Shown here piece by piece: positions 27,272 through 36,066 of a stretch of DNA of 36,066 bases. The notes under the pieces were generated by a model. That model was not told the DNA's origin and did not search any database. It was given only the letters and a program-made list of their open reading frames with translations. The translations under genes were made by a program, and so were the position numbers. Position 1 is the stretch's first letter; each line of letters begins with the position of its first letter. This DNA is from an uncultured Bacilli bacterium (GTDB lineage Bacteria > Bacillota_I > Bacilli_A > RF39 > UBA660): contig CALVRX010000010.1 in NCBI GenBank assembly GCA_944358815.1, forward strand, positions 1 through 36,066, written 5' to 3'.

Positions 27272-28213
27272 ATGTTACTAATAGAGGTGATAATAATTCA
27301 AACATGTGAACAACTAAACCTAAATTACTTAAAAGAATTAGATAAAAACATAACCTTAATTAATTTAACATATGACATTACTTTTAAAAGTGTTTTTCAA
27401 AGAAATAAACATCTTTTAAAAGATTACTTATACTCACTATTAAATATAAAATCATCTAAACTATTTTTTTTAAACAGTGAATTATATAAAGAAAATAAAA
27501 ATGAATATCATAAAATCATTGATTTATATCTATCTTTAGATAATAAAATATTTGTTGATATAGAACTAAATAAAATACCATTTGAAATAGTCATGGAACG
27601 TAATAACTTATATTTAAATAAACTATCTAGTATGCTTTTAGAAACAGGTGAAAACATCAAAAAATTAAAACAATATCACCTTTATCAAATTAACTTAAAT
27701 GCTCACCAATCTGACATAAACAAAAACAAAACAATAATATCTTTTGATATTGAAAATCACGAAATATATCCAATAAAACAAAAAGTAATTATCAAAAGTC
27801 TTGCAACTTACAGAAAGTTATATTATACTTATGGTAATAGAAGTAAAGAAGTCATATGGAATACTGCTTTAACCGCTAAATCATTCACAGAACTATATAT
27901 ACTCTTAAAACAAATATTAAATGAAAAGAACCTCCAAAAATTTATAAAGGATGTGATAAATATGAGTAAAAGTAAATTTGTCCTTCACGCTTGGGAAAAA
28001 GAAAAATTAGATGCCTTAGTCTTAGAAAATACCAAAGAATATGGACTTAAAGTTGGCAGAAAAGAGGGAAGAAAAGAGGGCAGAAAAGAAGGTATAAAAT
28101 CAAGTAGTCTTAAAATAGCCAAAAACCTATTCAATATGAATATGAACATCCAAGACATTTCCAAAGCCACAGGTTTATCTTTAAAAGAATTACAATTTTT
28201 AAAAGAAAATTAA
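27272..28213 (+). CDS. PD-(D/E)XK nuclease family (Rpn/transposase-like)
   Basis: About 305-313 residues of the PD-(D/E)XK nuclease family often labelled transposase or recombination-promoting nuclease (Rpn). Nuclease core: TFKSVFQRN near residue 38, then KIIDLYLSLDNKIFVDIELN (Asp, Asp, Glu-x-Asn positions about 80-98). The middle includes YRKLYYTYGNRSKEV. The C-terminus has a GRKE repeat, then IAKNLFNMNMNIQDISKATGLSLKELQFLK, a helix-turn-helix-like tail typical of the family. The start is unclear: ATG 27272 has no Shine-Dalgarno, while AGAGGTGAT at 27283-27291 would point to a non-standard start near ATT 27296. No inverted terminal repeats were found around it. Confidence 0.8.
   Translation: MLLIEVIIIQTCEQLNLNYLKELDKNITLINLTYDITFKSVFQRNKHLLKDYLYSLLNIKSSKLFFLNSELYKENKNEYHKIIDLYLSLDNKIFVDIELNKIPFEIVMERNNLYLNKLSSMLLETGENIKKLKQYHLYQINLNAHQSDINKNKTIISFDIENHEIYPIKQKVIIKSLATYRKLYYTYGNRSKEVIWNTALTAKSFTELYILLKQILNEKNLQKFIKDVINMSKSKFVLHAWEKEKLDALVLENTKEYGLKVGRKEGRKEGRKEGIKSSSLKIAKNLFNMNMNIQDISKATGLSLKELQFLKEN
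28055..28090 (+). repeat. three tandem 12-base repeats in the Rpn-like gene
   Basis: GGCAGAAAAGAG, GGAAGAAAAGAG and GGCAGAAAAGAA in tandem, each encoding Gly-Arg-Lys-Glu. Gain or loss of a unit would keep the frame and change the length of the basic/acidic hinge before the C-terminal HTH-like tail. Confidence 0.85.
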
Positions 28214-28247: not shown

Positions 28248-29159
28248 TTATTCAATAGTATAAGGATTATTTTTTGAACCATTTCCACCAGTTATTTTTA
28301 TGTCTGACGATAAATATAAAGCAGGGCGAGATGGATATGTATTATGAGCTGAAATACTCATTAATTGATTATAATTGTTTATTACAATTATAGAAGTAAT
28401 TGTTCGAGTACCACCATTTTTCATTATCCAATTAGTGTACTGACACTCCACAGAATTTTGTCCATTAAGTTTAATAGAACCACATAAATTTTTATTCGAA
28501 TTAGCCCTTATATACTCACTTGCATTAATTAGTCCAATAAAGCCATTCCATTTGGTAGCTTTTTCTGAATTAATCTGATTTTGCATAGTAGGATTATTGC
28601 TTAAATAAAATGTACCAATATACCATACATGTGACATTATCATCGGTTTATAATAATTAATTATGGAATTATAATAATTACCATTTAAATATGTATTAAG
28701 GCTAGTTGGTTTTGCCCAATTCTCTGAATCATTGTTACCCCATGCCATATTGGTTACACTTTCATTTTTAATAATTTTTATTGTTTTATCATTTTCTAAT
28801 GATAAAATTCGCCAGCCAGCTTTATCTCCATTAAAGGTTATATAATTATTTGGATCACTTCCTTTATATATGTATCTTCCTTTTTCATACTCATCTTCAT
28901 ATAAACCATCACCTGAAGTAACAATTTCTACATTATCTAAAATATCATCTGATGCACCAGGTGGATTTATACAAGTACTATAAAGTTCATCTAAAGCTCC
29001 TTGTACATCTTTACTTTTTAAACCACTAGTTTTATTATCGTACGTTACTTGATTACTGGGAAAATATGTCGCTGCCAATACTCCTATAGCACCAAATATT
29101 AAACCACCAAGAATAAAAATAAAAATTCGATTTTTTAAAATTCTTTTAAATTTTTTCAT
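28248..29159 (-). CDS. membrane-anchored surface protein with DUF6273-like domain
   Basis: 303 residues. N-terminal basic segment and one membrane helix (about residues 11-31), so the rest is outside. Residues 38-62 read VTYDNKTSGLKSKDVQGALDELY and then Cys, a segment repeated in the gene at 35768. A segment at about 100-115 reads DPNNYITFNGDKAGWRIL, starting a DUF6273-like domain that continues with WAKPTSLNTYLNGNYYNSI, a VWYIG strand and the C-terminal RPALYLSSDIKITGGNGS. Four cysteines occur (one in the N-terminal segment, two near CGSIK and ECQY). Function unknown; it is divergent from an XRE gene with operator-like DNA between them. The start codon follows GGAAAGGA; an ATG 7 bases upstream opens only Met-Lys-Lys-stop. 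Confidence 0.8.
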   Translation of the reverse strand: MKKFKRILKNRIFIFILGGLIFGAIGVLAATYFPSNQVTYDNKTSGLKSKDVQGALDELYSTCINPPGASDDILDNVEIVTSGDGLYEDEYEKGRYIYKGSDPNNYITFNGDKAGWRILSLENDKTIKIIKNESVTNMAWGNNDSENWAKPTSLNTYLNGNYYNSIINYYKPMIMSHVWYIGTFYLSNNPTMQNQINSEKATKWNGFIGLINASEYIRANSNKNLCGSIKLNGQNSVECQYTNWIMKNGGTRTITSIIVINNYNQLMSISAHNTYPSRPALYLSSDIKITGGNGSKNNPYTIE

Positions 29160-29262
29160 TTTTTCATTCCTTTCCTTATATAAATATTTTTATTACATCA
29201 TTTTAATAATTTTCCAATTATACGCACTCCTTTCATATTATGACATTTTTATTATCATTCAT

Positions 29263-29292
29263 ATTATAGCATCAATATGGACAATCTGTCCA
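29263..29292 (-). promoter_or_regulatory. promoter of the surface-protein gene
   Basis: On the minus strand: -35 TGGACA (29287-29292), 18-base spacer, -10 TATAAT (29263-29268) with TGC before it. The -35 and spacer lie inside the palindrome at 29275-29295. Confidence 0.65.
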
Positions 29293-29295
29293 TAT
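29275..29295. promoter_or_regulatory. operator-like palindrome between the surface gene and XRE gene
   Basis: ATATGGACA (29275-29283), spacer ATC, TGTCCATAT (29287-29295): a perfect 9-base inverted repeat. A further TGTGGACAGG half-site lies at 29325-29334, just before the XRE start. Placement over the -35 of the divergent surface gene suits a repressor site, most simply for the adjacent XRE protein. Confidence 0.7.
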
Positions 29296-29346
29296 ATTGA
29301 AACAAAAAATTTCGAGATAATAATTGTGGACAGGCGGTGCATACTT

Positions 29347-29580
29347 ATGAAGCATGATGATAATTATTATTACGATATAATTAGACAAAATATCAAAAAA
29401 TACCGTGAAAAAGCTAAATTAACCCAACAACAACTTGCTGATAAAGCAGGTATATCGATGAATTATATTGCTAAAATAGAAAGTAAAAAAATGCAAAGAG
29501 GCTTTACAATTGTTGTCTTAGGTCGAATCGCTGATGCTTTAAACATCGATATTAGATTATTGTTTGATGAAGTAAAATAA
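29347..29580 (+). CDS. XRE-family HTH regulator
   Basis: 77 residues consisting of one HTH_3 domain: IRQNIKKYREKAKLTQQQLADKAGISMNYIAKIESKK in pattern, with the helix-turn-helix at about residues 25-48, then RIADALNIDIRLLFDEV. No sensor domain. ATG 29347 is chosen after AGGCGGTG; an in-frame upstream ATG at 29326 lies before that site. Divergent from the surface-protein gene at 28248; the palindrome at 29275-29295 is its likely target. Confidence 0.9.
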   Translation: MKHDDNYYYDIIRQNIKKYREKAKLTQQQLADKAGISMNYIAKIESKKMQRGFTIVVLGRIADALNIDIRLLFDEVK

Positions 29581-29587
29581 AATTTCT

Positions 29588-29616
29588 TTCAAATTTCACA
29601 TAATTTATAGTATAAT
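29588..29616 (+). promoter_or_regulatory. promoter of the EIIB-like gene
   Basis: TTCAAA (29588-29593), 17-base spacer, TATAAT (29611-29616). Confidence 0.55.
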
Positions 29617-29634
29617 GGAAATAGGGTGATAGAA

Positions 29635-29952
29635 ATGGACATGATATGGCAATATGTAATTATAATTGTGGTACTGCTTATAATAGCGCTTGCTATTTTA
29701 AAAGCCAAAAGTAAAGATTTTAAATTGGAAGCTAATAAATTAATTGAATATTTAGGTGGTACAGCTAATATCATCAACTATGAAGTAAATAATTCGAGAT
29801 TCGTTGTGAACCTTCATAATATTGAATTAGTAAATAAAGAAGCCATTCAAAAAATGGGTGCCCAAGGTATTGTCGAAATTGACAATCAATTAAAAATTAT
29901 TTTTGGTGAAGATGCTAAACAATTAAAGAAAAATATTGACGATTTAAAATAG
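29635..29952 (+). CDS. membrane-anchored EIIB-like domain lacking the phospho-Cys
   Basis: 105 residues. One membrane segment (about 4-24) then a glucose-type PTS EIIB fold: KLIEYLGGTANIINYEVNNSRF, IQKMGAQGIVEIDNQLKIIFG and EDAKQLKK. Compared with the usual DACITRLR, the site reads EVNNSRFV: the phosphorylated Cys is Asn52 and the second Arg is lost. It therefore cannot take phosphate at that Cys, and no EIIC domain is attached. A role as a sugar- or protein-binding sensor is inference. ATG 29635 follows AGGGTGAT. It lies just upstream of the pyruvate kinase and GH31 genes. Confidence 0.78.
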   Translation: MDMIWQYVIIIVVLLIIALAILKAKSKDFKLEANKLIEYLGGTANIINYEVNNSRFVVNLHNIELVNKEAIQKMGAQGIVEIDNQLKIIFGEDAKQLKKNIDDLK

Positions 29953-29977
29953 ATGTAGAATAAAAACTACATCTTTT
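29951..29977 (+). terminator. terminator of the EIIB-like gene
   Basis: AGATGTAG (29951-29958) pairs with CTACATCT (29967-29974), followed by TTTT. Confidence 0.75.
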
Positions 29978-29985
29978 AAATTCCA

Positions 29986-30014
29986 TTGACTTTAAAAAGC
30001 ATATACATTATAAT
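29986..30014 (+). promoter_or_regulatory. promoter of the pyruvate kinase-GH31 operon
   Basis: TTGACT (29986-29991), 17-base spacer, TATAAT (30009-30014). The closest match to the sigma-A consensus in the window. Confidence 0.8.
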
Positions 30015-30037
30015 TTAAATAGAATAGGGTGGTAAAA

Positions 30038-31450
30038 GTGGAAAAAACAAAACTAATCGCAACTGTATGTGAAAGTAAAAATGAACGTAGACAAATAGAA
30101 GAATTTATTAAAAGTGGTATTGATGTCATTAGATTAAACATGAGCTATTCTTCCCAAGAAATTTGCCGTAGACTAATTAACATAATAGATGAAACAAATA
30201 AAAAACTAGGTACTAATACGGCAGTAATGCTAGATTTAGAAGGTCCCTGTGTTAGAACTGGAACCTTTATTGGTGGTAAAGCTAATTTAAATACCGGTGA
30301 TAAAATAAGAATATATATGAATGAAATTAAAGGTAATATGACAGGCTTTTCTGTCAATTATTCTAATTTAGTCAACGATTTAAAATATCATACTAAAATC
30401 AAATTAAGTAAAGGTAATGTAATACTTCAAGTAATTGAAAAAGGTTTAGACTATGTTGTATGTGATGTCCTAAAGGGTGGCGAAGTCACTGACCATTCCA
30501 AAATCTATTTACCAGAAACTAAAATTAGCCGTAAATTTTTAACTAAACAAGACTATAACGACATTTTATTTGCCGATGAAATGAATGTCGATTTTATTAG
30601 CGTGTCATCTATATCTTCAGCTGAAGATGTCCTTGAAATAAATGACCTATTAATTGAACTAAAAAATGAACATATCGGTCTTTTAGCTAAAATTGAAAAT
30701 AAAAGAGCCGTTGATGACATTGATAATATCATTAATATTGCAGACGGTATTATTTTAGATAGAGGCGATTTAGGAATTGAACTACCAATCGAAATTGTCC
30801 CAAATATTCAAAAGAAAATAATTCATAAATGCTATCAAGAAGGCTGTCTAATGGTTATTACTGCCGAATTTAATAGTTTTCTAACTAGAAAAGCCATTCC
30901 AAACCGTGCCGAAGTTTCCGATCTCTCAACCTTAGTATCTGAAGCTATCGATGCCATTATGCTAACTAGTGAAACCACTGTTGGAGCTCATCCTGTTGAT
31001 ACCGTTCGTATTGTTAGTAAAATAATTAAAGAATCTGAAGACAGTATTGATTATGGATATTTTTTCCGTAAATCATTAAATGAAAAACAAAAAAGCATTA
31101 CCTCAACTGTTTCTTCCAGTGTGGTATTAGGAGCTAACGAATTAGATTGTAAAGCTATTTTAGTTGCCACAAACTATGGTAAAACCGCAAGACGTATTAG
31201 TCAATTAAAACCACCTTGTCCAATCGTTGCCGCAACCTCTAACCATGAAGTTGTTAAAAGTCTTCAATTGCATTTTGGCGTTTTACCAGTAACAGCCCAA
31301 GGTGATACTCTAGATGAATTAACTGAAAATGTCAAAAAACAAATAACCACTACATTTAATTTAAATAAAGGTGATAAAATTATTATTACTGGTGGTTATC
31401 CATTTAAAAAAGTTACTTATACTAATTTTATGCAAATCGATGAAATATAA
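30038..31450 (+). CDS. pyk: divergent pyruvate kinase
   Basis: 470 residues from a GTG start (AGGGTGG upstream). Pyruvate kinase converts PEP and ADP to pyruvate and ATP. Kept residues: Arg32-x-Asn34-x-Ser36, catalytic Lys218 and metal ligand Glu220 (AKIEN), Asp244 (RGDLG), PNRAEVSD, and the C-terminal domain. Changed against the norm: RLNFSHG reads RLNMSYS, LDTKGPEIRT reads LDLEGPCVRT, and the ATQMLESM stretch reads TAEFNSFL with one residue lost, so the catalytic Thr may be Thr275 or may be absent. Either a divergent pyruvate kinase or a paralogue with a different task. It is 20 bases from the GH31 gene, probably one operon. Confidence 0.85.
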   Translation: MEKTKLIATVCESKNERRQIEEFIKSGIDVIRLNMSYSSQEICRRLINIIDETNKKLGTNTAVMLDLEGPCVRTGTFIGGKANLNTGDKIRIYMNEIKGNMTGFSVNYSNLVNDLKYHTKIKLSKGNVILQVIEKGLDYVVCDVLKGGEVTDHSKIYLPETKISRKFLTKQDYNDILFADEMNVDFISVSSISSAEDVLEINDLLIELKNEHIGLLAKIENKRAVDDIDNIINIADGIILDRGDLGIELPIEIVPNIQKKIIHKCYQEGCLMVITAEFNSFLTRKAIPNRAEVSDLSTLVSEAIDAIMLTSETTVGAHPVDTVRIVSKIIKESEDSIDYGYFFRKSLNEKQKSITSTVSSSVVLGANELDCKAILVATNYGKTARRISQLKPPCPIVAATSNHEVVKSLQLHFGVLPVTAQGDTLDELTENVKKQITTTFNLNKGDKIIITGGYPFKKVTYTNFMQIDEI

Positions 31451-31470
31451 AAGAATAAGGAGCGATGCCC

Positions 31471-33873
31471 ATGTATAATTTAGGTGAACAATTTAAAATT
31501 GATAAACAAAGAGCCATAGCCAATAAAAAAAGCATCATACAAGGACCAAATTATCGTTTTACTGTTTTAACCGAAAGATTAATTCGTTTAGAATATAATG
31601 ACAATGGGCATTTTGTCGATGAACCCACTGAATTAGTCTTATATCGTGATTTGCCAACTCCTGAATTTGAATTAAAAGAAGACCGTAACTTTGTAATTAT
31701 TACTACCAAATATTTTAAATTAACATATATTAAAGGAAAATCATTTATAGGTGGTAAAGCCAACCCCTCAGCTAACTTAAAAGTTGACCTTTTAAACACT
31801 GATCGTTATTGGTATTATGGACACCCTGAAATCAGAAATTTTGGCGTACCTAATCCATCACTGTCCGAAGGGGGAACAAAAGGTAAAGGATTATACTCTG
31901 TCGAAGGTATTGCCAGTATTGACGATACAGCATCCTTACTATTAAATGAAGATGGAACCACACATCAAAATGATGAACTAAGAATTGATACCTATTTATT
32001 TATGTATAACACTGACTTTGAAGACGCATTAAAAGATTATTATCAAATATCTGGTTTTCCTGCCTTACCACCTAGATATGCCTTAGGAAACTGGTGGAGT
32101 AGTAATAATGATTATGATGACTTAAAACTAAAAAAACTAGTTGACAATTTTGATAGAAATAACATTCCTTTATCTGTTATCGTGTTAGACAAAGATTGGC
32201 ATAAACGTATTAAAATTCAAGATAAATATCTCAGAACCGGCTTCACTTTTAATAACCAATACTTTACAAATCCTAAAGCCATGATTGATTATCTACACAG
32301 TAAAAATATTAGAATAGGATTAAGTATCGATCCAACATCTGGTATCTATAATATTGATACCTATTATAATGACGCCTTAAAATACATTCAAACTGATAAT
32401 ACCGGTAAAATTCCTTATAATGTTTTAGACCCTAAATTTATCGACGTCTATTTAAAAATGTTTATTCATCCTCTAGATAATCTAGGAATTGACTTCTACT
32501 GGCTTGATTTGGAAAATACCCAAAATACGCCACAATTAACTTTATTAAAACATTATCAATTTTATGATATGCAAAGAGATTATAAAAGAAGACCACTAAT
32601 TTTATCAGAAGGTGATACTATAGCGCCTCATCGTTATCCAATATTATATTCTGGTAAAACTCCAGTAGGCTGGGAAACACTAAGAAAAATACCATTTTAT
32701 AATAACAACACCTTTAATAATGGCGCTCAGTTTGTCGCTCACGATGTCAGTGGTTATTTCAAAGGAACAGAAGATAATGAACTTTATTTAAGATCCATTC
32801 AATTAGGCACCTTTTCACCAATTTTAAAATTTGGTGTAGATAAAGGTCGCTATTATAAAAGAGAACCTTGGCGCTGGGATATTAAAACATATACCATTGC
32901 CAAAGACTACTTGCAACTAAGACATAAATTAATCCCTTATATCTATAGTGAAACCTATAAATATCATAAATTTGGTGATCAATTAATAAAACCATTATAC
33001 TATTTAAAACCAGACTTTTATGACGATGTCTTATACCGTAATGAATACTTCTTCGGCTCATCACTATTTATCGCTCCGATCATTACCCAAAAAGATGAAG
33101 TCATGAATCGAGTAGTCCATAATTTCTATCTTCCATCAGGTACTTGGTATGACTATGTCACTGGTAAAAAATTTCCAGGTGGTAAAAGCTATATCAGTTT
33201 CTTCCGTGATGAAGACTATCCCGTTTTTGCTAAAGCCGGTTCTATAATTCCCTTAAGCAATAATAAAAACTTAAATGATACTACACCACCAACCGATATG
33301 GAAATCAATATCTTCCCAGGACAAAGTAATTCATACACCTTGTTTGAAGATGATGGAGAAAGTGATTTATATCGCAAAGGCTTCTATCTATTAACTCAAA
33401 TTGACTATACTTATATGCCTAATAATTATAGTGTAGTTATTAGATCAGTTAAAGGTAAAAGCGGAATCATTCCTGATAATAGAAATTATACTATTATTTT
33501 TAGAAACACCAAAAGAACCGAAGAAGTCACAGCTTATTTAAATGATACATCACTATCTTTAAAAACTTATGTCGATGGACCAAACTTTATTGTTGAAATA
33601 CGTGATGTTCCAACTGTTGGTCAATTAACCATTAGCTGTAAAGGTAAAGATATTGAAATCGATGCTTTACGTCTAATTAACGAAGATATTGAACGCATTA
33701 TCAGTGACTTAAAAATCTCTACAGAAATGAAAGAAAAAATTGATTCCATTCTTTTCAGTAAAGATCCAATTAAGAAAAAAAGAATTTCTATTCGTAAATT
33801 AGCTAAAGATGGTTTAGATAAGAAATTCGTCAGAATGTTCTTAAAATTACTTGAATATATTGGTGAAATTTAA
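31471..33873 (+). CDS. glycoside hydrolase family 31 (alpha-glucosidase-like)
   Basis: 800 residues. GH31 enzymes cleave alpha-linked sugars. N-terminal beta domain (1-190), the TIM barrel with LGNWWSSNNDYDD, then nucleophile Asp346 in FYWLDLEN, C-terminal beta domains and a helical tail (about 735-800) seen in some Bacillota members. The usual WSGD acid/base segment after HRYP reads YSGKTPVGWETL, with Lys396 in place of Asp, and SHDIGG reads AHDVSG. Activity is thus uncertain. ATG 31471 follows AAGGAG at a normal distance; the ATG at 31465 is too close. No signal peptide, so it acts on imported sugars. Confidence 0.88.
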   Translation: MYNLGEQFKIDKQRAIANKKSIIQGPNYRFTVLTERLIRLEYNDNGHFVDEPTELVLYRDLPTPEFELKEDRNFVIITTKYFKLTYIKGKSFIGGKANPSANLKVDLLNTDRYWYYGHPEIRNFGVPNPSLSEGGTKGKGLYSVEGIASIDDTASLLLNEDGTTHQNDELRIDTYLFMYNTDFEDALKDYYQISGFPALPPRYALGNWWSSNNDYDDLKLKKLVDNFDRNNIPLSVIVLDKDWHKRIKIQDKYLRTGFTFNNQYFTNPKAMIDYLHSKNIRIGLSIDPTSGIYNIDTYYNDALKYIQTDNTGKIPYNVLDPKFIDVYLKMFIHPLDNLGIDFYWLDLENTQNTPQLTLLKHYQFYDMQRDYKRRPLILSEGDTIAPHRYPILYSGKTPVGWETLRKIPFYNNNTFNNGAQFVAHDVSGYFKGTEDNELYLRSIQLGTFSPILKFGVDKGRYYKREPWRWDIKTYTIAKDYLQLRHKLIPYIYSETYKYHKFGDQLIKPLYYLKPDFYDDVLYRNEYFFGSSLFIAPIITQKDEVMNRVVHNFYLPSGTWYDYVTGKKFPGGKSYISFFRDEDYPVFAKAGSIIPLSNNKNLNDTTPPTDMEINIFPGQSNSYTLFEDDGESDLYRKGFYLLTQIDYTYMPNNYSVVIRSVKGKSGIIPDNRNYTIIFRNTKRTEEVTAYLNDTSLSLKTYVDGPNFIVEIRDVPTVGQLTISCKGKDIEIDALRLINEDIERIISDLKISTEMKEKIDSILFSKDPIKKKRISIRKLAKDGLDKKFVRMFLKLLEYIGEI

Positions 33874-33902
33874 AAAAGTTATAGAAAAAACTATAACTTT
33901 TT
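33873..33902. terminator. bidirectional terminator
   Basis: Perfect 12-base stem AAAAAGTTATAG (33873-33884) and CTATAACTTTTT (33891-33902), loop of six A. Serves the GH31 operon and the convergent GH3 gene, whose stop it overlaps. Confidence 0.9.
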
Positions 33903-35277
33903 ATTTTTGCCTTTCAAAAATAAGACCTTTATAATATTTCCAAGCAATTACCCTAAAAGCTAACTTATCAATTAAATTCTCATCAATTGTTTTATTATTA
34001 ATAGCTGTTTTTATAGCATTTATACTACTTTGATAATCTGTTGTCATAATTAAATCATTTCCCGCTAAAACCGCTTTAACTGTCGCATCCGCAATATCTG
34101 CCACGGCACCCATAGCTAAATCATCAGTCATAATAATGCCGGTAAAATTAAGTTCATTTCTAAGTAAATTATGTACACTCGGAGAAAGAGAAGCAGGATT
34201 TTTATCATCGATACTCTTAACAATATTGTGACTAACTAAAACCGCTTCTGTCCCTGCATCAATACCAGCTTCAAATGGCGGAATATCATTTTTTAATATA
34301 TCGTCATAAGTCCTATCATCAGTTACTGATTCAGTATGTGTATCCTTATTATTTCCGTAACCAGGGAAATGTTTTAACGTATAAGACACGCCAAGTCCTT
34401 TACTCGCATCAATTACAGTCTTCGCATAAGTAGAAGTTATCTCACTGCCTTGTCCTAAAGCCCTATCGTACATGTAATCACTAGAATTAGTCGATACATC
34501 TACTACCGGCGCTAAATTGACATTAATTCCCAAATTGTAAAGTAAATTACTTTTCTTAATAGTATCATTCTTAATTGCCTCAAATCCTCCAGAAGCATAT
34601 AACTCCTTTGAGGACTTAAAAGGTGTAGAAGCCAGTTTCGGATTACTACTAACTCTAACCACCTTGCCACCTTCCTCATCAGTAGCTGTCAGTATCGGTA
34701 TATTAGAAACCTCCTGTAAACTGTTCATCATATTTTTTACTTCTGTAGAACTTTTATCTTTAAAATCTTTTTCGAAAAACACATATCCACCAAATTGATT
34801 ATCTCTTAATACATCAATTCCATCATCAGGGTACCTTACTAATAATATCTGTGCAATCTTTTCATCTAAACTCATTTCTTTTAATTTCTTATACGCCTGC
34901 TTATAATAATCTTTAAAAATTCCATTGTCCAAAAAATCAGTTGGAATTCCATTTTCATCCTCAGTTACATCCGCACTAGTATAACTTATAATTTCATTAT
35001 TTTGTAAATCAAAATTTTTATTTAAATCACCACTATATTCAATTTTCAAAAAATCTCCCACTTGTATATCATCATCATTCATTCCAAATGTATAAATAAT
35101 ATTATTGCTATCTTGAACTGTCACATAATCTCCATCAGTATTTATAACCGAAGCTAAAAGTTCATTTGTATCATCAACTTGTGTACCTTTGTTAACCCTT
35201 AAACTAATAAGAATTCCACTTGCTAATATTGTCACAAAAACAATCGATAAAGCAATTAAAATATTTTTCTTGTTCAT
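33901..35277 (-). CDS. membrane-anchored GH3 (NagZ-like) glycosidase
   Basis: 458 residues. One N-terminal membrane segment (about 6-27), so the enzyme faces outside. Residues about 30-110 form an extra beta-rich domain not found in short NagZ. The GH3 barrel begins near LKEMSLDEKIAQILL and includes DEEGGKVVRV, NLGINVNLAPVVDV, KHFPGYG followed by a Asp-Thr-His motif (acid/base His), and the nucleophile Asp in IIMTDDLAM. The KH(F/I)PG and D-x-H pattern is that of beta-N-acetylhexosaminidases that trim peptidoglycan. No lipobox. Shine-Dalgarno GGAGGAA on the minus strand. Confidence 0.9.
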   Translation of the reverse strand: MNKKNILIALSIVFVTILASGILISLRVNKGTQVDDTNELLASVINTDGDYVTVQDSNNIIYTFGMNDDDIQVGDFLKIEYSGDLNKNFDLQNNEIISYTSADVTEDENGIPTDFLDNGIFKDYYKQAYKKLKEMSLDEKIAQILLVRYPDDGIDVLRDNQFGGYVFFEKDFKDKSSTEVKNMMNSLQEVSNIPILTATDEEGGKVVRVSSNPKLASTPFKSSKELYASGGFEAIKNDTIKKSNLLYNLGINVNLAPVVDVSTNSSDYMYDRALGQGSEITSTYAKTVIDASKGLGVSYTLKHFPGYGNNKDTHTESVTDDRTYDDILKNDIPPFEAGIDAGTEAVLVSHNIVKSIDDKNPASLSPSVHNLLRNELNFTGIIMTDDLAMGAVADIADATVKAVLAGNDLIMTTDYQSSINAIKTAINNKTIDENLIDKLAFRVIAWKYYKGLIFERQK

Positions 35278-35332
35278 AATTCCTCCTCACTATTATTATA
35301 TATAAAATTATCTCCCAAAATATGTCAAAAAT

Positions 35333-35352
35333 AAAAAACCACAAAGTGATTA
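35333..35352 (-). terminator. terminator of the second XRE gene
   Basis: On the minus strand AATCAC, loop TTT, GTGGTT (plus 35337-35351) with one G-U pair, then a T-run (plus A 35333-35338). Confidence 0.55.
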
Positions 35353-35625
35353 TTTTTTTCTCTCATCAATTCTAGAAAAATGAGTAACATGTGATTTGTC
35401 ATAAATAACTAAATCCTCAGATTTTAACTTAGCCTTCTTGTCATACTTGTTTATATTATTTGTAAACTTATCAATCGTCGAACACTTTACATCAATTTTA
35501 CCATTCTCAATCTGATTCAAATATGATAAAGTGGTTCCTAAAATTTCCGCAAATTTCTCTTGCGATAAATGATATTTCATTCGAAAATACTTTAAATTAA
35601 TAGCCAAATTTTCAGCTAATCTCAT
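35350..35625 (-). CDS. XRE-family HTH regulator
   Basis: 91 residues. HTH_3 domain at about residues 5-60: AINLKYFRMKYHLSQEKFAEILGTTLSYLNQIENGK in pattern, followed by a basic/acidic tail ending IDERKK. Start at the ATG at 35625, 8 bases after GGAGG on the minus strand; five earlier in-frame codons overlap that site. It is divergent from the surface-protein gene at 35768, mirroring the arrangement at 28248-29580. The two regulators share the fold but little exact sequence. Confidence 0.88.
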   Translation of the reverse strand: MRLAENLAINLKYFRMKYHLSQEKFAEILGTTLSYLNQIENGKIDVKCSTIDKFTNNINKYDKKAKLKSEDLVIYDKSHVTHFSRIDERKK

Positions 35626-35669
35626 AACCTTTACCTCCAATAATATTGTTAAAATTATTTTATATTTTC

Positions 35670-35756
35670 ACGAAAGCAAAGTCTTTACTATTAAAACGAA
35701 AGAAAATGTAGACAAGTAATAAAAGATGTAGTATATTTATTATAGTAAGACGAAAG
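35670..35756. repeat. three direct ACGAAAG repeats in the divergent intergenic region
   Basis: ACGAAAG at 35670-35676, 35696-35702 and 35750-35756, spaced 26 and 54 bases (about one and two units of 27). The second abuts the -35 and the third overlaps the Shine-Dalgarno of the plus-strand gene. Plausible binding sites for the adjacent XRE protein. Confidence 0.55.
35709..35737 (+). promoter_or_regulatory. promoter of the second surface-protein gene
   Basis: TAGACA (35709-35714), 17-base spacer, TATATT (35732-35737). Confidence 0.65.
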
Positions 35757-35767
35757 GAAATGAAAAA

Positions 35768-36066
35768 ATGAAGAAAAAAGTCGAAATGTTTTCCAAAAAA
35801 TATCTAATAGGAATAATACTAGGAATATTTGTCTTTGGAGTAGGAGGAGTATATGCTGCTACATATATCGCAAGTAATCGAATAACCTATGATCATTCTA
35901 CAAGTGGCATGCAAGCAACAGAAGTCCAAGGAGCCATCGATGAACTTTATAATATCTGTTTTCCACCAACAACAGCCAGCCAAGTCATGGATGGATTAAC
36001 CAAAGATCCATATGAATGTAGATATTTCTTTAAAGGACAAAATCCAAACAATTATATAACCTTTAA
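35768..36066 (+). CDS. membrane-anchored surface protein, 3' end outside the window
   Basis: 99 codons are visible and the frame is open to the edge. Basic N-terminus, one membrane helix (about residues 12-32), then ITYDHSTSGMQATEVQGAID followed by ELY and Cys, and, after a spacer, QNPNNYITF. These two segments match the surface protein at 28248-29159 in the same order and at similar spacing, so a DUF6273-like domain is expected beyond the edge. The start has GAAAGGAAATGAAAAA in front, nearly the same leader as the other gene. Divergent from an XRE regulator. Confidence 0.82.
   Translation, partial: MKKKVEMFSKKYLIGIILGIFVFGVGGVYAATYIASNRITYDHSTSGMQATEVQGAIDELYNICFPPTTASQVMDGLTKDPYECRYFFKGQNPNNYITF

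Follow-up and report, generated by a model that had tools for sequence, protein, structure and literature searches.

The two divergent modules of regulator and surface protein found in the window (the whole 36,066-nucleotide stretch analysed, which is contig C10 of the G000 assembly, 1.05 Mb and 63% complete) are probably expression sites in a genome-wide repertoire of surface lectins diversified by a diversity-generating retroelement (DGR), each site lying behind a private repressor. The features of both modules are as follows.

28248..29159, minus strand: surface protein 1, 303 aa, with an N-terminal helix, a short TYD..VQGALDELY..C stalk and a DUF6273 / C-type-lectin-like head (ORF, family domain, AlphaFold2)
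28971..29159, minus strand: N-terminal segment of surface protein 1, residues 1-63, with a basic start, a hydrophobic helix at ~8-31 and TYD..TSG..VQGALDELY..C (alignment)
28248..28907, minus strand: predicted C-type-lectin-like head, DUF6273 family, ~residues 85-303 (family Pfam matches and fold comparison)
28323..28400, minus strand: region equivalent to a DGR variable repeat, ~residues 254-279, shortened and AT-rich (placed by alignment)
29275..29295, no strand: candidate operator 1, perfect palindrome ATATGGACA-ATC-TGTCCATAT in the divergent intergenic region
29326..29580, plus strand: XRE regulator 1, divergent from surface protein 1 (HTH_3 5e-14, Pfam)
35350..35640, minus strand: XRE regulator 2, divergent from surface protein 2 (HTH_3 1.8e-8, Pfam)
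35673..35691, no strand: candidate operator 2, AAAGCAAAGTCTTTACTAT, corresponding to the palindrome AAAGTAAAGTCTTTACTAT that G020, G002 and G012 have at this locus
35768..36064, plus strand: surface protein 2, N-terminal 99 residues, the remainder lying beyond the contig end (ORF)

Both modules exist as described in the first-pass annotation: the ORFs were located, both regulators match HTH_3, and the two copies are inverted, being arranged -/+ at module 1 and mirrored at module 2. The N-termini of the two surface proteins are 53% identical over ~109 residues, and every motif listed as shared is present in both. Judging from orthologues, the regulators probably start at ATG codons located a few codons inside the ORF calls, at 29347 for regulator 1 and at 35625 for regulator 2. 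In the AlphaFold2 model, the N-terminal segment of surface protein 1 forms helices at residues 2-31 and 52-64. The single N-terminal helix proposed as a membrane anchor was recovered, but its anchoring role is equivocal, since it ends in AxA-AT and could therefore as well be a cleaved signal peptide. Also, no cell-wall anchor motif was noticed in the surface proteins, so that display could be secretion. A gene adjoining that of surface protein 1, at 27272-28213 of the window, resembles a PD-(D/E)XK nuclease-family transposase (Pfam PF12784, 1.7e-7).

The module had been read as a repeated one, and its likeness between the two sites is not due to chance, because the N-terminus recurs 33 times in the incomplete G000 genome and 25-51 times in the close relatives G002, G004, G012, G018 and G020. 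Used as a query, surface protein 1 recovered 45 matches in G000, about a dozen of which are full-length at 42-49% identity. The N-terminus model found 0 or 1 member in each of 18 other sampled congeners and none in the other genera searched, and by these searches the N-terminus is specific to this clade. The head domain is more widely distributed, occurring in 42 of 43 congeners and in four other genera of the family, with none among 31 other genomes of the class sampled. The same N-terminus also bears other heads, such as DUF5050. At congener loci L186, L195, L198, L206, L208, L210, L189, L201 and L212, the same DUF6273-type head is carried on a TasA/camelysin-like N-terminus and has its own divergent HTH gene. 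A short gene (~65 residues, ending in DELYxxCK) is placed between the regulator and the full gene at no fewer than 6 sites, and in G000 a second short family gene, marked by 'SYDNSKTxLxCKNAQCVID', occupies this same position at C18:7965-8258 and C46:6171-6491.

Pairing with a divergent regulator was assessed in 80 units from four genomes, the first gene of each having at least 350 bases upstream (81 entries, from which three second genes were removed and to which two first genes scoring under the cut-off were added). A divergent HTH gene lies opposite the start of 67 of these units, 60 times an XRE gene and 7 times a ribbon-helix-helix (RHH) gene; a further 3 follow an XRE gene on the same strand, and about 10 of the 80 have no adjacent regulator. 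HTH genes were called with local profiles seeded on G000, which agree with the Pfam places where compared. In the G000 background, 8 of the 958 genes outside the family have a divergent XRE gene within 300 bases; for family genes the figure is 12 of 25 by a conservative count in which second genes are included (Fisher p 4e-16). The pairings would have been coincidental if other copies generally lacked an adjacent XRE gene; the 67 units in 80, set against 8 genes in 958, rule this out. About half of the XRE domains of G000 lie beside family genes. The number of XRE genes as such is not a clean marker of the family, given that some congeners without this N-terminus are also rich in them; in several of these, the DUF6273-type head sits on the TasA-like N-terminus opposite an HTH gene of its own.

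The regulators are unalike between loci, comprising single XRE, double XRE and ribbon-helix-helix proteins, and most consist of a single small HTH domain without a sensor domain. Regulator 1 is 88% identical to its orthologue at the same locus in G020, and regulator 2 is 85-89% identical to its orthologues in G002, G012 and G020. On sequence grounds, the principle of regulator pairing is wider than this clade.

Perfect palindromes, defined as those with arms of 7 or more, were found in 20 of 65 intergenic regions, compared with 2.3 +/- 1.4 in dinucleotide shuffles. The sequence of these operator-like palindromes changes from one locus to another, but several are found again at the corresponding locus of other species. 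The palindrome is perfect at module 1, where the core TATGGACA..TGTCCATA of 29275-29295 is also present at the orthologous locus of G020 (L167), and it is likely the private operator of regulator 1. At module 2 it is imperfect, and 35673..35691 is possibly the operator of regulator 2. Regulators and palindromes are thus both locus-specific, in agreement with the individual pairing that the first-pass annotation had proposed.

Comparison of orthologous loci between species revealed that DNA identity is 77% in the flanks, 87% in the regulator and 82% in the intergenic region (random 35, 56 and 60), and 72% in the N-terminus and 65% in the head of the surface gene (random 67 and 59). At the protein level, 11 locus pairs with full heads and with regulators of 75% or more identity were compared; median identity was 91% for the regulators and 54.5% for the surface proteins, random between-genome pairs of the latter reaching 49.1%. 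The slight excess of same-locus over random pairs (p 0.013) would fit an ordinary expansion of paralogues with fast divergence, in which the pairing stems from one ancestral duplicated cassette and nothing is exchanged between loci. We hold this to be very improbable: all 11 shared loci have a protein elsewhere that is closer to one of the partners, and in at least 5 this holds in both directions, counts which are lower bounds because the locus set read in the other genomes is partial. In many cases the surface gene at another locus is the better match by a clear margin (up to 74 vs 47%), otherwise diverged copies are linked by exact repeats of 47-127 bases (those of 127 may be assembly overlaps), and the regulators at different loci are unalike and differ even in fold. 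DGR variation was also considered as the cause of the whole-gene divergence and rejected, because the divergence is not limited to the variable repeat and spans both N-terminus and head. Two contigs, C21 and C39, have common 5' and 3' ends around different payloads, and represent either two alleles or a recent duplication. Also, 9 of 100 contig ends fall inside family genes where 2.6 were expected (p 0.0014), an excess that hints at switching within the clone and is suggestive only.

Regulators of the same locus retain 78-97% identity across species, and at propeller-type loci the surface genes also stay 77-87% identical, together with locus and regulator. Both patterns would be expected of a fixed role, with the divergent regulators acting as condition-specific switches that sense their own signals and the surface proteins as substrate-specific binders of a gut commensal, in the manner of nutrient-uptake loci and without any stochastic repertoire. 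Such an arrangement is unlikely, given the lack of a sensor domain in most regulators; moreover, species differ in the binding protein present at a head-type locus but keep its regulator, and therefore the fixed link between signal and substrate is broken. Less probable still is a passenger role of the XRE genes, in which these would resemble antitoxins or phage repressors and guard against an excess of a harmful membrane protein, the module being a selfish or addictive spreading cassette. The cassettes are indeed placed between unrelated housekeeping genes, and the HTH domains match antitoxin and phage repressor families. However, the loci are syntenic across species (flank identity ~77%, random 35%) and therefore do not look freely mobile, relatives were found on only one viral contig, and the head has a predicted binding fold and is not a known toxin. 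A toxin-antitoxin system proper was discarded, since only antitoxin families are matched by the HTH domains and no toxin domain is present. A phage origin of the modules was likewise discarded, the surface proteins having no significant PHROG match and only the one viral contig carrying relatives.

The reading of the modules as expression sites of a lectin repertoire draws on the head domain. PF19789 (DUF6273) is matched by 72 of 79 aligned members of the family; surface protein 1 alone has no Pfam match and does not reach PF19789 at E 0.1. An AlphaFold2 model computed on the 79-sequence alignment (pLDDT 88.8) resembles 9qa6, the N-terminal part of an IgA peptidase from Thomasclavelia ramosa (Z 14.6, 181 residues), followed at Z 4-6 by Lcl and animal C-type lectins. 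The head is accordingly predicted by the model to adopt a C-type-lectin fold. In phage receptor-binding proteins, DUF6273 is known as a C-lectin-like domain subject to mutation by DGRs (PMC10743442, PMC11792537), which makes apt the likeness to phage tail fibres noted earlier from a motif of the stalk.

The retroelement, together with the probable exchange of surface genes between loci, had been missed in the earlier interpretation. Reverse transcriptases are present in 7 of 7 clade genomes examined and have relatives in 32 of 44 genomes of the genus. The motif LPIGxxxSQ occurs in those of G000, G002, G004, G012, G018 and G020, one of the two G004 copies reading SLQ. Their nearest solved relative is 8ub7, which we take to be a DGR enzyme, and their neighbours are bAvd (Pfam PF22296, 3.9e-12, above cut-off) and a MutS-domain-I-like protein; the Avd has no sequence match among solved structures. 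The gene of the MutS domain I-like protein precedes those of bAvd and reverse transcriptase at L301:5158-5568, L302:3063-3473 and L305:2482-2889.

In G020 a template repeat (TR) is located directly downstream of the family gene that carries its variable repeat (VR), and the two differ at 17 of 35 adenine and at 0 of 68 non-adenine positions. In G002 a single TR matches the VRs of four family genes, each on a contig of its own; adenines make up 36 of the 102 TR bases and account for 73 of the 75 differences. The regulators of these four units are one RHH and two XRE proteins, the fourth unit having no divergent regulator. A second template type, in G012, matches two scattered genes with 29 of 30 differences at adenines, and has further looser matches. 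Pattern controls for the TR/VR matching gave zero matches. From these sequence patterns, we conclude that the clade harbors a multi-target DGR. At L129 and L140 of G002, two template copies lie 311 bases downstream of VRs, and behind each of them the gene tail is repeated. The tail-spacer-template unit of G002 looks as if it spread by homologous integration into other targets.

A close TR match is found in only ~1-8 copies per genome, and the other copies display the footprint alone. Across the 79 members, entropy is 3.43 bits at TR codons with A in the first two bases, 1.81 bits at other TR codons and 1.49 over the whole alignment. The residues at the A-containing codons are mainly Y, S, N, D and G, matching the expected output of mutation of AAY codons. 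Given the high entropy at A codons, most of the family appears to bear the imprint of a DGR, including copies that have lost their match to the present template. The TR-A and TR-B patterns have no match in the window, which covers the head of surface protein 1 and in which gene 2 ends before its head; by this comparison, the two genes of the window are probably older members of the set, without a match to a current template. No template repeat was found in the stretches examined of the 63% complete G000, its one reverse transcriptase looks 5'-truncated, and a single copy, at C13:56659, is near a current VR. The GC-rich homing motif GCGGTCCGYCC was discarded as a marker of active targets, since it is present in only 7 of 79 members and in none of the G000 stretches examined.

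In the mechanism that we infer, which includes repression, surface display, exchange by recombination and current activity of the retroelement, each small regulator would bind its own intergenic operator and repress the surface gene, and probably itself too. Under such private repression a given cell would therefore express only a few sites. The reverse transcriptase and bAvd would copy the template, randomise its adenines and rewrite the head loop of those copies that still match it, and surface genes would move between sites by recombination of their copies, leaving the regulator in place. The outcome would be a variable set of individually switchable receptors, whose ligands would be host glycans, other bacteria or phages. 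More tentatively, the whole may constitute a bacterial repertoire of receptor genes, in which dozens of fixed sites with private stochastic repressors hold interchangeable lectin genes and a trans-acting retroelement rewrites their binding loop, so that cells show different and evolvable combinations.

DGRs, multi-target DGRs and DUF6273 as a DGR target are already known. DGRs randomise one or a few surface proteins. Antigenic-variation families, such as gonococcal pilin, hold many variants of one surface protein and recombine between copies, with one expression locus fed by silent copies; in the family described here, by contrast, there are many promoters, each with its own regulator. The TvpA-family DGR of Treponema denticola combines one reverse transcriptase and template with up to seven scattered targets of C-type-lectin fold (PMC4891356). 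The present system resembles it in that a reverse transcriptase and one template serve scattered targets, predicted here to have the same fold. It differs in its size, with 25-51 family genes to a genome of ~1-1.4 Mb, in the DUF6273 heads, in having template repeats of two types, and in the private divergent regulators and the probable gene exchange between loci. The DGR targets of gut phages (tentaclins and those of Faecalibacterium prophages) have a DUF6273 head of C-lectin fold with the VR at its C-terminus (PMC10743442, PMC11792537). That head is common to both, yet the phage proteins are receptor-binding proteins, whereas the family described here is chromosomal, with a different N-terminus and regulators of its own. 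In Thiohalocapsa PB-PSB1, a single genome holds an array of several DGR loci with 15 targets, which shows duplication and shuffling; those targets are putative antigen sensors tied to conflict systems, and their description, as consulted, makes no mention of pairing with private repressors (PMC10907252).

A DGR-linked family with a private divergent regulator for most members was not found in the open-access literature searched, and how a cell picks which of many DGR targets to show is not addressed in the literature found. With dozens of loci in a ~1 Mb genome and about half of its XRE genes devoted to private control of one DGR-linked family, target choice becomes directly testable. The family should also be useful as a source of small repressor-operator pairs that occur naturally and are predicted to be mutually distinct, and as a model, in a gut commensal, of how receptors diversify rapidly.

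Some further genes were observed around the family. Two distant relatives of the head domain (L336, L337) occur on one 63-kb viral-labelled contig, IMGVR_UViG_3300011008_002676, which may be host DNA. In G000, long genes, some with a prepilin-like start, are located at C41:14327-18281 (L070) and C21:8777-12320 (L050); a stretch near their C-terminus matches the N-terminal family model and resembles the stalk of the surface proteins. Collagen-like GPTGPSGAT repeats are found at two contig ends of the same genome, C38:13327-13698 and C39:1-250, and probably belong to one gene split by assembly.
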